Assembly: GCA_028873845.1 (NCBI GenBank) | Contig: JAPPNO010000024.1 | Coordinates: forward strand, 1 to 45,002 | Reading direction: 5' to 3' | DNA: 45,002 nucleotides | From: Gemmatimonadota bacterium | GTDB lineage: Bacteria > Gemmatimonadota > Gemmatimonadetes > Longimicrobiales > Gaopeijiaceae | Shown: piece by piece, positions 39,337 to 43,726 of the stretch | Layout: each line of letters opens with the position of its first letter | Position numbering within the stretch: position 1 is the stretch's first letter | Program-made: the position numbers and the translations under genes | Notes under the pieces: model-generated | Database searches by the model: none | Seen by the model: only the letters and a program-made list of their open reading frames with translations | What the model was told of the DNA's origin: nothing

Positions 39337-41514
39337 CTAGTTCCCGAAGAGTTCCTTGAGCGCCAGACCCATCCGCAACCGCCGCTCGATCGTGCTTTGC
39401 CACCCCCCCGGACGGGCGTCGAAGAGGTTGTCCACGCCCGCGCTCGCCTCCACCCCACCCCCGACCCCCCACGCGACCCGCACATCGATCGCCGTCAACC
39501 GCTCCTGCCTCCCGGCCTCCTCCCTCCCCCCGCCGCGCCCCATGCTCACGATCGGGGCGCTCCCGGTCAGGTTCTCCGTCACATCGAAACGCAGCCCGGA
39601 TCCCCCGGCGATCCATGACACCCTGGCGTGCGCGGTGTGCCTGGCGCGGCGGTCCAACGGCGAATCGGAGGGAGTCGCCCTTGCATCCAGCCAGGCGTAG
39701 CCCGTGCTGAAGCGGATGCTCCCGAAACCCGCGCGCATACGGAGTTCAAAGCCCTGCGTCACCGCCTCGGCGACGTTTCGCGGCGAATAGATGAGCAATC
39801 CGCTCGGCGTGTTCCCGACAAACCCCGGCTCGATGAGGTCCTCGATCCGGTTCGCGAACACTTCGGCCTCGAAATGAAGACTCGAGCGCGGGCTCCACTC
39901 GACGCCGCCGGACGCGTTCCACGAACGTTCGGCTTCGAGCTCCGGGTAGCCCTGCAGCACGTACCCTCCGCCCAGATTGACGAACTGCCATGCCAATTCC
40001 TTGAACGAGGGGGCGCGGAACCCGCGTGCAACCGACGCACGCACTCGAAGCCGCGTCCCTACCGCGTGGGTCAGTCCGACGGCCGGCGCCACGTTGGTCC
40101 CCCAGCGGCTGTTCCACGTCAGCCGGGCACCGCCGCTCAGCACGGTGGCACCCAGCCGCCAGGCGTCCTGTGCGAAGGCGGCCAGTTGGCGGTCCGCCAC
40201 CCGCTCCTCGATGAGCTTGTCGGGCGAACGGATGGCGCGATGGGCGCCCTCGACCCCCACATCCAGATGATGCCCGCCCGCTTCGGCGGAGTAGGTACTG
40301 CCGGCCCGCCAGATCCTCTCCCACTGGGCGGCGTCCCGGCCCCCGGCGATCGGCGCGTCGCCGCGGGCGCTGCGGTACAGGTGCTCGTATTCCTGCACGA
40401 AGACGCTCCCTGTCCACGTCCCCGGGCCCGTCCGCCGCCGACCCTCCAGCCAGCCGGAGTATCCTTCGTTGTCGTTGAAGCCGGAGAAGTCTCCGCCCAC
40501 CGGCCAGCGCTGCCGCTCGCGCAGCCAGGAGAAATCCGCGCGCACATCCCAGCGGTCGCCCGCGTCCAGGTCGATTCGGGATTTCAGATCCCACACGCGG
40601 GCCAGCGGATTCGCGCTCGCTGCGTCCGCCCCTGCAACCCGGTCTTCCTGGCGCCAGCTTCCGGTAACCCGGTATCGCAGGCGTCCGCCGCCGCCGCTCG
40701 CCGTGGTTTCGGCTCCGAGGCGGCCCGCGGTGCCCGACACGGCGTGCGCGTCCACGCGAAACCCCTCGGCGGGGGCACGCGTGATCAGGTTGACGACGCC
40801 TCCCAGCGCATCCGATCCGTAGAGCGACGACAGAGGCCCCTTGACCACCTCCACCCGCTCCACGCCGGCCAGCGACACGCGGCTCAGGTCGCGGTTCTCG
40901 AGCAGCGTGCCGGCAGCGGGCCTTCCATCGATGAGCATCAGGACGCGTGCGCCGCCGATCCCCCGTATCATCAGGCTGGATCCCACCGGCGTCGCCCCGG
41001 TCACCTGCAGACCCGGCACCTGATCGAGGAGGCGATCCGCCGCGGCCGCCCCGGCCACCGCGATCTCCTCCGCCTCGATCGCCTCGAAGGGTATCGCCAG
41101 CTCCGCGCGCCGCCGCCCGCCCACCCCCGCCGTCACCACGACCTCGTCCAGCGCGAGCGGGTCGGGCGCCAATCCGATCCGCCATCCGGCCGCCACCACC
41201 TCTCCCCACTCCACCGTGCGGGTTCGGTAGCCCAGGGCCCGCACCTCGACCGCGCCACCGGGACCCCACGAGTCCGGGACCGAAAACGCCCCGTCCGTGT
41301 CCGTCACGACAGCGGCGCGGCCCCGTGACCCCGACACCCGCCCGGAAACGACATTCCCCCCGTCGACCCACCGCACCGCCGCCCCCGCGACCGCCCGGCC
41401 CGACTCCCGGTCGTGGACCAGGCCCTGTTTCTGCGCGGCCACGGACGACGGCCCCGGTGCCGCCGCCGCGAAGATGGCGGCCAGCAGCACCGGGACCCGC
41501 GCGCGCGTCCTCAT
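39337..41514 (-). CDS. TonB-dependent receptor, probable haem/metal-tetrapyrrole transporter
   Basis: 725 residues from the ATG at 41514, which overlaps the stop of the HmuY-like gene (ATGA). A signal peptide ending SSVAA precedes a short carboxypeptidase-regulatory-like domain (about 25-115: ESGRAVAGAAVRWVDGG to VEVRALGYRTRTV), then LALDEVVVTAG (TonB box region), the plug with SSLMIRGIGGARVLMLIDGR and VERVEVVKGPLSSLYGSDALGGVVNLIT, and a BtuB/HmuR-like barrel (GFRAPSFKELAW at the NPNL-like position; the chain ends LFGN instead of an aromatic). With the HmuY-like and CbiX-like lipoproteins upstream it probably imports haem or a related tetrapyrrole. The ligand is inferred from neighbours. Confidence 0.9.
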   Translation of the reverse strand: MRTRARVPVLLAAIFAAAAPGPSSVAAQKQGLVHDRESGRAVAGAAVRWVDGGNVVSGRVSGSRGRAAVVTDTDGAFSVPDSWGPGGAVEVRALGYRTRTVEWGEVVAAGWRIGLAPDPLALDEVVVTAGVGGRRRAELAIPFEAIEAEEIAVAGAAAADRLLDQVPGLQVTGATPVGSSLMIRGIGGARVLMLIDGRPAAGTLLENRDLSRVSLAGVERVEVVKGPLSSLYGSDALGGVVNLITRAPAEGFRVDAHAVSGTAGRLGAETTASGGGGRLRYRVTGSWRQEDRVAGADAASANPLARVWDLKSRIDLDAGDRWDVRADFSWLRERQRWPVGGDFSGFNDNEGYSGWLEGRRRTGPGTWTGSVFVQEYEHLYRSARGDAPIAGGRDAAQWERIWRAGSTYSAEAGGHHLDVGVEGAHRAIRSPDKLIEERVADRQLAAFAQDAWRLGATVLSGGARLTWNSRWGTNVAPAVGLTHAVGTRLRVRASVARGFRAPSFKELAWQFVNLGGGYVLQGYPELEAERSWNASGGVEWSPRSSLHFEAEVFANRIEDLIEPGFVGNTPSGLLIYSPRNVAEAVTQGFELRMRAGFGSIRFSTGYAWLDARATPSDSPLDRRARHTAHARVSWIAGGSGLRFDVTENLTGSAPIVSMGRGGGREEAGRQERLTAIDVRVAWGVGGGVEASAGVDNLFDARPGGWQSTIERRLRMGLALKELFGN

Positions 41515-42581
41515 CGCAGCCGCTGGAACCTCACCGATGCGAAGCCCGACTGGCCGGTGGCACTGTAGTAGTCGAAGATCTGCACCTTGTAGACCTCTTC
41601 GCCGGCACGCACGAGGAAGACGTTGTAGGTGGGCCACATGCGGCTGTTCTCCTGAATGTCGTACCAGAAGACCCCGGTTGCGTCACCGGTGGTGACCGGA
41701 AACGCGCCCGCGATGGCCGAAAGGAACCCGGCGTATTCGGGGGCGTCGTCGGCGCGCTGCAAAGCCGTGAAGTCGTCCGTCGCGTCCAGCGGGAAGGTGC
41801 CGGTCTGGCAGGAGGCGTTGACGTCGATGACGAGTTCGGGAGATGCGCTCAGATCCCACCCGCAGCCATCGCCCGTCCGCAGTTGATCTCCCTCCGCGAG
41901 TTCCAGGTAGACGGGACCGCGGGCGAAGCTTATCACCGCGGTGTCCGCGGACCCCAGGGTGCCGCCGGGATCGTGGCGCCGGTACTCGATGGTGAGTCCG
42001 AGCGGCCGCCTTCCGTCCATTCGGAGATCCACCACGCGAAAGACCGAGTGTCCCCGTCCGGAACTTTCGCGCACCTTCCACGCGGCTCCCGGGTTGGCCA
42101 CGATGTTCCCGGCCCGGGGGTCGAAGCGGAACCAGGTGGAACCCTCGTCGGGCACCAGCACATCTTCGGCGAAGGCGGACGCGGCCGGGATGTCGGTGTC
42201 GGCCACCACGGCGAAGGCGGCCTCGCCGTCGGCCGCCGTCAGGGCCGTGACCTCCTCGGCCATCAGATCCGCGTTGTTGCCGATGTTGAATCCGGCGACC
42301 GCACCCGGGCCCGCGACGCCGCCGTTCAGGCGCACGGTGAACCTGCGGAACGCCATGTGCCAGGCGGTCGACGCGCCGGGGTCGGAGGGAGATACCAGCG
42401 AACCGCCGTCGGCGAGGTTCAGGTAGGCGAAGTTGATGGGCGACGACGCGTCCACGACGATCTCGCCCTCCTCGAAGACCTCTTCGGGGGGTGCGACTTC
42501 GGATTCGCAGGCTTGTGAAAACAGAAAAACGGCCAGGAGGGCCCCAGGATGGGCGGGTGATACTCCATGCGTGCCGGACAT
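41511..42581 (-). CDS. HmuY-family haem-binding lipoprotein
   Basis: 356 residues from the ATG at 42581 (AAAGGA about eight bases upstream). A short signal peptide runs into FSQAC, an imperfect lipobox with Cys at about 25, then an acidic spacer. The HmuY fold signature is clear: DASSPINFAYLNLADGG, TAWHMAFRRFTVRLNGG, VVDLRMDGRRPLGLTIEYRR and the C-terminal strand YYSATGQSGFASVRFQRL. HmuY proteins are haemophores that take haem from host proteins and hand it to a TonB receptor. The gene order, with 4-base overlaps on one side and 4 bases of spacing on the other, shows it is in an operon with the receptor and the CbiX-like lipoprotein. Longer than P. gingivalis HmuY. Confidence 0.85.
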   Translation of the reverse strand: MSGTHGVSPAHPGALLAVFLFSQACESEVAPPEEVFEEGEIVVDASSPINFAYLNLADGGSLVSPSDPGASTAWHMAFRRFTVRLNGGVAGPGAVAGFNIGNNADLMAEEVTALTAADGEAAFAVVADTDIPAASAFAEDVLVPDEGSTWFRFDPRAGNIVANPGAAWKVRESSGRGHSVFRVVDLRMDGRRPLGLTIEYRRHDPGGTLGSADTAVISFARGPVYLELAEGDQLRTGDGCGWDLSASPELVIDVNASCQTGTFPLDATDDFTALQRADDAPEYAGFLSAIAGAFPVTTGDATGVFWYDIQENSRMWPTYNVFLVRAGEEVYKVQIFDYYSATGQSGFASVRFQRLR

Positions 42582-42585
42582 CAGG

Positions 42586-43617
42586 TCATCCTTTCCATGA
42601 AATAGCCGGTAGTCGCGGGTGACTACCGGATTGGCGAGAAGGGGATACAACGGGATCCGCCGGACAGGATGCGAGCGGCGATCCGGCCCCGGCGGCGCAG
42701 AAGGTGGCCGTGACGCGTCCCCTGATCCAATCCGTGACGAGGGGATGCGGGAGCAGGCTTCCTGCGGGCACGTAGTCGAGTCCGTCGAGGACTTCGCGGT
42801 AGGGACCGAATCCCGAAACGCGGTACGGAATCACGACGACCCGGCCCCAGCGCTCTGCCATCGCGGTGACGGCCGCCCGGATCTCCTGTTCCGCCTTGGC
42901 CCTCGGCGCGGCCCAGTCCTCCCGGAGCGTCGCGACACGGACCTCCGCGTATCCCTCGGAATGCAGACCCCGGGCTCCCACCTGCATCGCGGCGAGCAGA
43001 GCCCCGTTGTCCTTTTCGGAGCCCATGCCGTGCGCGATCAGCAGAATGCCGGTGTCCGAGGGGTCGGTGGCGCTCGCGCGTGCCCGGTCCGCCAGGATGC
43101 TCGTGACTTCGGCTGACCCGGAGAGCCCCTTGAGGTCCAGCAGGATGTCGCCTTTCACCTTGAGGGGTGCGAGTTCCGCGCCGTCGACCATACGGTGTCC
43201 GACCATGGCGCGAGCCGGCGCGTCCGAGCGGCGGCCGAAGAGGTACTCGGTGTGGTGCAGGAACGACCTGCCCGACACGAAGAGCCGGACCACCGCGATG
43301 GTGTGCACTCCCCGGTCGTACAGTGAATCGAGCGCCGCCTGCAAGGTGTGGGGATTCGCCATCCCCAGGGCGAGCGCGACCGGTATGCGGTCACGCAGAG
43401 GGGCGAGTGCGGTGTTTACGCTGGCATTCCAATCCGGTCCACCACCGTGGGCCATGACCAGGACGCCCGCCTTGCCGGTGGCGGGCGGGATCGCAGCTTG
43501 AACAGTGGTTTGGGAGCGGGAAACGGAGGGGAGTGGGGCAGGGGTCGTGCAGCCGGCGACCGCCCAGGACTGGACGGCGGCGACCGCGAACAAGCGGGTC
43601 CGCGCGCGGGTTTTCAT
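42586..43617 (-). CDS. exported CbiX/SirB-like chelatase lipoprotein
   Basis: 343 residues. The N-terminus is a signal peptide with a canonical lipobox (WAVAGC, Cys23), which cytoplasmic CbiX/SirB enzymes never have. Two tandem chelatase half-domains follow. The first (about 50-185) has both metal-ligand histidines of class II chelatases: AHGGGPDWN (His57) and SFLHHTEY (His121/122). The second (about 188-300) keeps IAHGMGSEKDNG (His196), but its second site is IPYRVSGFGPYREVL with no His, so it probably is structural. Cytoplasmic relatives put Co2+ or Fe2+ into sirohydrochlorin. Outside the cytoplasm, next to a haemophore and receptor, removing metal from an incoming tetrapyrrole or metal sensing is more plausible. 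First gene of the operon. Confidence 0.82.
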   Translation of the reverse strand: MKTRARTRLFAVAAVQSWAVAGCTTPAPLPSVSRSQTTVQAAIPPATGKAGVLVMAHGGGPDWNASVNTALAPLRDRIPVALALGMANPHTLQAALDSLYDRGVHTIAVVRLFVSGRSFLHHTEYLFGRRSDAPARAMVGHRMVDGAELAPLKVKGDILLDLKGLSGSAEVTSILADRARASATDPSDTGILLIAHGMGSEKDNGALLAAMQVGARGLHSEGYAEVRVATLREDWAAPRAKAEQEIRAAVTAMAERWGRVVVIPYRVSGFGPYREVLDGLDYVPAGSLLPHPLVTDWIRGRVTATFCAAGAGSPLASCPADPVVSPSRQSGSHPRLPAISWKG

Positions 43618-43664
43618 CTATGAACACCGAGAGAACTCAGGACTATCGTGGTTCAGGGCGCGCA

Positions 43665-43693
43665 TAAGCTAAACGGCAAATCGGGTTTGTCAA
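43665..43693 (-). promoter_or_regulatory. probable promoter of the CbiX-HmuY-TonB operon
   Basis: Reading leftwards, TTGACA (43693-43688) is a perfect -35 with TAGCTT after 16 bases (43671-43666), 48 bases before the ATG at 43617. No clear Fur box was found by eye in 43618-43726. Confidence 0.5.
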
Positions 43694-43726
43694 ATCGGGG
43701 TGGAACGGGCCGGGGACCTGCGCCCA

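Follow-up and report, generated by a model that had tools for sequence, protein, structure and literature searches.

A putative haem-scavenging operon with an exported CbiX-fold lipoprotein in a Gemmatimonadota genome

The DNA analysed here (the window) is a stretch of 45,002 nucleotides, contig JAPPNO010000024.1 of the Gemmatimonadota assembly GCA_028873845.1. Three open reading frames occupy positions 39337 to 43617, all on the minus strand, and encode a CbiX-like protein, an HmuY-family protein and a TonB-dependent receptor. The features discussed below are as follows.

42586 to 43617, minus strand: CbiX/SirB-fold (class II chelatase) lipoprotein of 343 amino acids with the lipobox Cys23, assigned by homologue matches, profile and AlphaFold2 model.
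41511 to 42581, minus strand: HmuY-family haemophore-like protein of 356 amino acids, a probable lipoprotein, assigned by PF14064 and alignment.
39337 to 41514, minus strand: TonB-dependent receptor of 725 amino acids, assigned by Pfam and NCBIfam matches.
43618 to 43726, minus strand: intergenic region upstream of the CbiX-like gene, scanned for Fur-type boxes.
42606 to 42629, minus strand: terminator-like hairpin with a 9-bp stem, where the CbiX-like gene ends, from the hairpin scan.

The preliminary description of this DNA had regarded the three genes as tightly coupled, which agrees with their spacing. Only 4 nt separate the stop codon of the CbiX-like gene from the ATG of the HmuY gene, the stop of which in turn overlaps the ATG of the receptor gene, an arrangement pointing to translational coupling of all three. 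An open reading frame for an iron-sulphur GlpC-like protein lies 109 bases upstream of the CbiX-like gene in the same direction, and the genes downstream of the receptor are unrelated. The hairpin at the first junction is a perfect 9-bp stem with a terminator-like tail, located just 5' of the HmuY ribosome-binding site; four terminator-like sites were found in the hairpin scan of the region, compared to 1.9 expected. This hairpin possibly tunes the ratio of the CbiX-like and HmuY-family proteins.

The CbiX-like protein of the window alone gave no match in Pfam, NCBIfam or PDB sequences, and its assignment required homologues. The CbiX family PF01903 was matched by 26 of 30 homologues (best 5e-14), none of which matched the CbiK family, and an alignment profile of the homologues matched the structures of CfbA, CbiX and SirB. 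The AlphaFold2 model of the window protein (pLDDT 86.7) superimposes on SirB 5zt7 with a Z score of 18.9 (rmsd 3.3 over 231 residues), followed by CbiX 4ccs (Z 17.2), coproporphyrin and human ferrochelatases (Z near 17), the periplasmic CbiK of Desulfovibrio vulgaris 2xvz (Z 16.6) and Porphyromonas gingivalis FetB 9b86 (Z 16.0). Sequence profiles and model together support a two-lobed class II chelatase fold, as had been proposed earlier from the letters of the DNA. The export predicted at the same time also found support, as the window protein carries the lipobox AVAG-C23, which is present in close relatives of its clade. More distant members possess a plain signal peptide instead, and signals for export were picked up by a crude scan in 93 of 101 unique members. 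A ‘CbiX’ annotation does not by itself imply sirohaem or cobalamin synthesis. Two cysteines in the C-terminal tail (CxxGxxSPLxPC, residues 307-318, about 42664-42699 in the window) are kept in most of the lipoprotein clade as well as in one truncated copy, and probably form a disulphide.

Intact metal-ligand His residues had been claimed at positions 57 and 121/122 of the window protein, of which only the first withstood comparison. The metal ligands of SirB and CfbA are His10, Glu43 and His76 in SirB numbering (PMC11301274). His57, the equivalent of SirB His10, is invariant in homologues and is the only one of these three ligands to be retained. There is no equivalent of Glu43; an invariant Met86 is found opposite or adjacent to this position, depending on which of two HMMER alignments, differing by one residue, is used. 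The position of His76 is Phe119 in the window protein and Phe or Trp in the main family, with His only in a distant clade. Position 121 is His in just 25 of 99 unique homologues (Glu in 36, Asp in 20, others in the rest), and position 122 is mostly Gln, Arg or Pro, with His rarely kept. In some 100 homologues, drawn from six or more phyla, His57, Met86 and His196 are invariant, as is Asp234, and Arg239 varies in a single row of the alignment. His196, in the second half of the protein, occupies the place of SirB Arg134, a place taken in CfbA by the second His9 (PMC11301274). As read from the alignment, the family retains a His on either side of the cleft without the partner ligands, an unusual and strictly kept pattern. 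Since SirB Glu43 and His76 are not kept, the standard chelatase reaction is doubtful, and the loss of these residues together with the retention of His57 and His196 speaks against plain metal insertion.

The two neighbours are of the kinds first suggested, a HmuY-like haemophore and a TonB receptor. The HmuY-family protein passes PF14064 with 42.3 bits (cut-off 27). Its alignment displays an invariant Cys25 and conserved Met188, Met315 and Cys240/Cys258, and no conserved His; Met-ligated HmuY proteins are known (PMC6200708). The receptor passes both Plug (PF07715) and TonB_dep_Rec (PF00593), and among NCBIfam models it scores 141.9 bits with the haem model and 138.7 bits with the B12 model, both below their own cut-offs.

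A survey of other genomes revealed that this linkage recurs. Among 298 genomes sampled from the phylum, 64 contain a homologue of the CbiX-like gene, 120 contain HmuY and 48 contain both, such that HmuY is present in 48 of 64 genomes with the homologue and in 72 of 234 without it (p = 3.5e-10, with kinship not corrected). The two genes lie within 6 kb of each other in 26 of the 48 genomes having both. The genes run CbiX-HmuY-TBDR in the lipoprotein clade of the window, HmuY-TBDR-CbiX in a distant clade (~30% identical) with plain signal peptides, and TBDR-HmuY-CbiX in Rhodothermus, and these three HmuY-linked orders fall in three separate places of the tree. Scanning of named genomes with a narrower alignment (A2) yielded 79 loci in Gemmatimonadota, Rhodothermota/Bacteroidota, Acidobacteriota, Planctomycetota, Armatimonadota and Pseudomonadota. 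The gene often follows a receptor gene in Pseudomonadota, where all five receptors tested pass the haem/haemoglobin models TIGR01785/TIGR01786; two receptors from Gemmatimonadota/Rhodothermus favour the B12 model by a small margin without reaching its cut-off. The neighbours of 101 unique members comprise HmuY plus receptor in 24, a receptor only in 15 and neither in 62, of which 22 are cut by a contig end.

Other gene contexts came to light in the same genomes. HemP heads HemP-receptor-CbiX operons at two gammaproteobacterial loci (L141:6202-6444 and L148:6261-6500). DUF6607, a candidate new haem-uptake protein, follows the CbiX-like gene at two alphaproteobacterial loci (L139:9794-10954 and L146:9974-11056). 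A second, single-domain HmuY adjoins hemC in Palauibacter-type genomes (G046:C65, G042:C40 and G148:C137).

In most relatives in the clade of the window, a near-perfect Fur-type palindrome, TGAGAATnATTCTCA, precedes the gene. Over the whole family, a Fur-type box matching at least 12 of 14 positions was observed in 35 of 98 unique upstream regions, and for 37 of the 98 none of 60 shuffles scored as well. The window copy has no Fur-type box in its upstream region (43618-43726). No cobalamin riboswitch was found in the window, and a sigma-70 promoter scan of the window region returned none. Solitary exported CbiX-like genes, with no receptor nearby, occur in Planctomycetota and Acidobacteriota (e.g. 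L103, L113, L117 and L121), and palindromes near-matching the Fur box, TGAGACTCAGTCTCA and TGAGACTCATTCTCA, were noted at such loci.

In two genomes of the same genus (G061 and G173), and probably in a third (G064), HmuY and the receptor are kept and the CbiX-like gene is reduced to a C-terminal remnant (loci L153, L154 and L155), suggesting that this gene is dispensable for that uptake. At the last of these loci, in G064, a Fur-type box at 171-185 immediately precedes the stub, close to the start of the contig.

The gene content of the genomes indicates where a ligand could originate. hemC, encoding porphobilinogen deaminase, is missing in all ten genomes of the genus of the window, two of which are single-contig, and ferrochelatase is missing in the window genome and five near relatives; the genus is thus predicted to be auxotrophic for haem. 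No other CbiX was found in the window genome. In the absence of hemC, ferrochelatase and a second CbiX, nothing points to sirohydrochlorin being made in the cell for a CbiX to act on, and the ligand has to be acquired from the surroundings. The complete genomes G017 and G058 of the genus also lack CbiX and HmuY and must obtain haem another way. Haem oxygenase (PF01126) is absent from the window genome and from 20 of 21 operon-bearing genomes, and HemS is absent from the window genome and from 23 of 24 genomes examined. The suggestion that a smaller chelatase fold stands here in place of the CobN-like HmuS is in line with the absence of CobN/HmuS (PF02514) from the window genome, 19 of 21 operon-bearing genomes and 8 of 8 others. 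FeoB was identified in 19 of 24 genomes, with two copies in the window genome. The sole FecCD permease of the window genome is encoded directly behind a cobalamin riboswitch (L152:8574-8728, minus strand), which places B12 uptake elsewhere than in the window operon, and no haem-type FecCD permease was found in this genome. Intact haem is therefore hard to trace into the cytoplasm by known routes, favouring iron release outside it.

Combined with the gene neighbourhoods and genome contents, it is proposed that the operon scavenges haem or a similar metalloporphyrin from outside and that the CbiX-fold lipoprotein helps to remove the iron extracytoplasmically, a reading to which we assign a probability of about 0.48. 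The link to haem uptake derives from the haem receptors and HemP in Proteobacteria, the HmuY linkage and the Fur boxes of relatives. HmuY would capture haem or a similar metalloporphyrin outside the cell, and the TonB receptor would carry it across the outer membrane. The cleft of the lipoprotein may then hold the tetrapyrrole with His57 of the N-terminal half on one face and His196 of the C-terminal half on the other, Met86 being nearby. Iron would be taken out of the haem outside the cytoplasm with the help of this protein, the freed Fe2+ would be imported by FeoB, and the cell would release the porphyrin or hand it on. We infer haem as the ligand, the cleft geometry, the catalysis and the anchoring membrane. 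As its widespread family is often encoded in iron-controlled haem-uptake operons, the lipoprotein itself is likely to act on imported haem outside the cytoplasm and may serve to free its iron. De-chelation by two opposed His residues would be a chemical parallel to HmuS, for which a site of two opposed His across a cleft has been described (PMC12583661).

Several findings count against iron removal: the loss of SirB Glu43 and His76, the sister species with only a stub, the missing Fur box of the window copy, the 62 of 101 members without HmuY or a receptor nearby, the nearly equal haem and B12 scores of the window receptor, and a HmuY without conserved His. In addition, a haem auxotroph needs part of its haem to stay intact. 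This last point, the predicted auxotrophy of the genus, would suit a non-catalytic chaperone that binds haem axially by His/Met and passes it between HmuY, the receptor and the periplasm without metal removal; the loss of Glu43 and His76 while His57, Met86 and His196 stay invariant likewise fits ligation better than metal insertion, and HmuS offers a model in Met79 and His254, which hold a second, non-substrate haem between two domains that have been compared to class II chelatases (PMC12583661). However, no haem-type FecCD permease was found in the genome, which leaves intact haem with no obvious onward route, and the Met/His pair of HmuS seems to follow a different strand than Met86 and His196, leaving an analogy only. 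We consider such a chaperone less likely than iron removal. Extracytoplasmic insertion or exchange, in which another metal is loaded into a captured porphyrin, draws on the resemblance of the model to FetB and the periplasmic CbiK and on the Mn insertion reported for FetB in P. gingivalis (PMC13402209), but the usual class II metal-ligand set is not kept and this activity is improbable.

Two further explanations move away from haem. An exported binder of iron, siderophore or another small ligand, built on a chelatase/periplasmic-binding-like fold and no longer acting on tetrapyrroles, would account for the many solitary homologues, some of which have a Fur box without a receptor; the invariant His on both cleft halves and the haem-receptor, HemP and HmuY neighbours make it quite improbable. 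Import of cobalamin by the operon, with the CbiX-like protein acting on it, has behind it the CbiX ancestry, the near-equal B12 and haem scores of the window receptor and the slight, sub-threshold preference of the two Gemmatimonadota/Rhodothermus receptors for the B12 model. It is nevertheless disfavoured, and given very little credence, owing to the lack of a riboswitch in the window, the separate riboswitch-controlled cobalamin-type permease of the genome, and the iron boxes and HemP of relatives.

Returning to iron removal from haem as the preferred reading, the wider proposal is more tentative and we would sooner doubt than accept it: that these proteins constitute a widespread and so far undescribed family of haem de-chelatases, small, exported and class II in fold, marked by His57, Met86 and His196, often iron-controlled and located in haem-uptake operons of at least six phyla. 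If true, about 320 residues would do what the 1,460-residue HmuS does in Bacteroidota. The question bears on the way in which iron is freed from haem in bacteria that have no haem oxygenase, and the small size of these proteins makes the family suitable for testing haem demetallation outside the cytoplasm.

Compared to SirB and CbiX of sirohaem and cobalamin synthesis (PF01903), the window protein shares the two-lobed fold and the equivalent of His10, but it is exported, has lost Glu43, and has Phe119 for His76 and His196 for Arg134. Unlike those cytoplasmic biosynthetic enzymes, it belongs to a family with lipoboxes or signal peptides and to a genus that, without hemC, would provide no endogenous substrate. 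The hmuYRSTUV system of Bacteroidota likewise combines HmuY, a TonB receptor and an exported chelatase-like partner with opposed His on two lobes, whereas HmuS, at 1463 amino acids, is large and belongs to the CobN type (class I), and the window operon has no HmuTUV. Homology of Met86/His196 to HmuS Met79/His254 was considered and rejected, as the HmuS sequence suggests that His254 follows a later neck-domain strand than the one bearing His196 in the window protein. The D. vulgaris CbiK (2xvz), a cobaltochelatase with a CbiK metal site, is also an exported class II chelatase fold, of CbiK type there and of CbiX type here. The demonstration that HmuS itself is a de-chelatase dates only from 2025 (PMC12583661). 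In P. gingivalis, IhtAB consists of a TonB receptor and a CbiK-like haem-binding lipoprotein proposed to remove iron from haem (PMC10913741), and the likeness of IhtAB/FetB to the window operon lies in an exported class II chelatase-fold lipoprotein beside a TonB receptor; by sequence, the window family is CbiX-type while IhtB/FetB are CbiK-type, and iht has no HmuY. With IhtAB/FetB and the Desulfovibrio periplasmic CbiK as precedents, the initial impression that no such arrangement had been described is not supported. What appears to be new in the open literature searched is the CbiX-type family itself, together with its iron boxes, the non-standard site that it strictly keeps, and its association with HmuY and haem receptors across many phyla.
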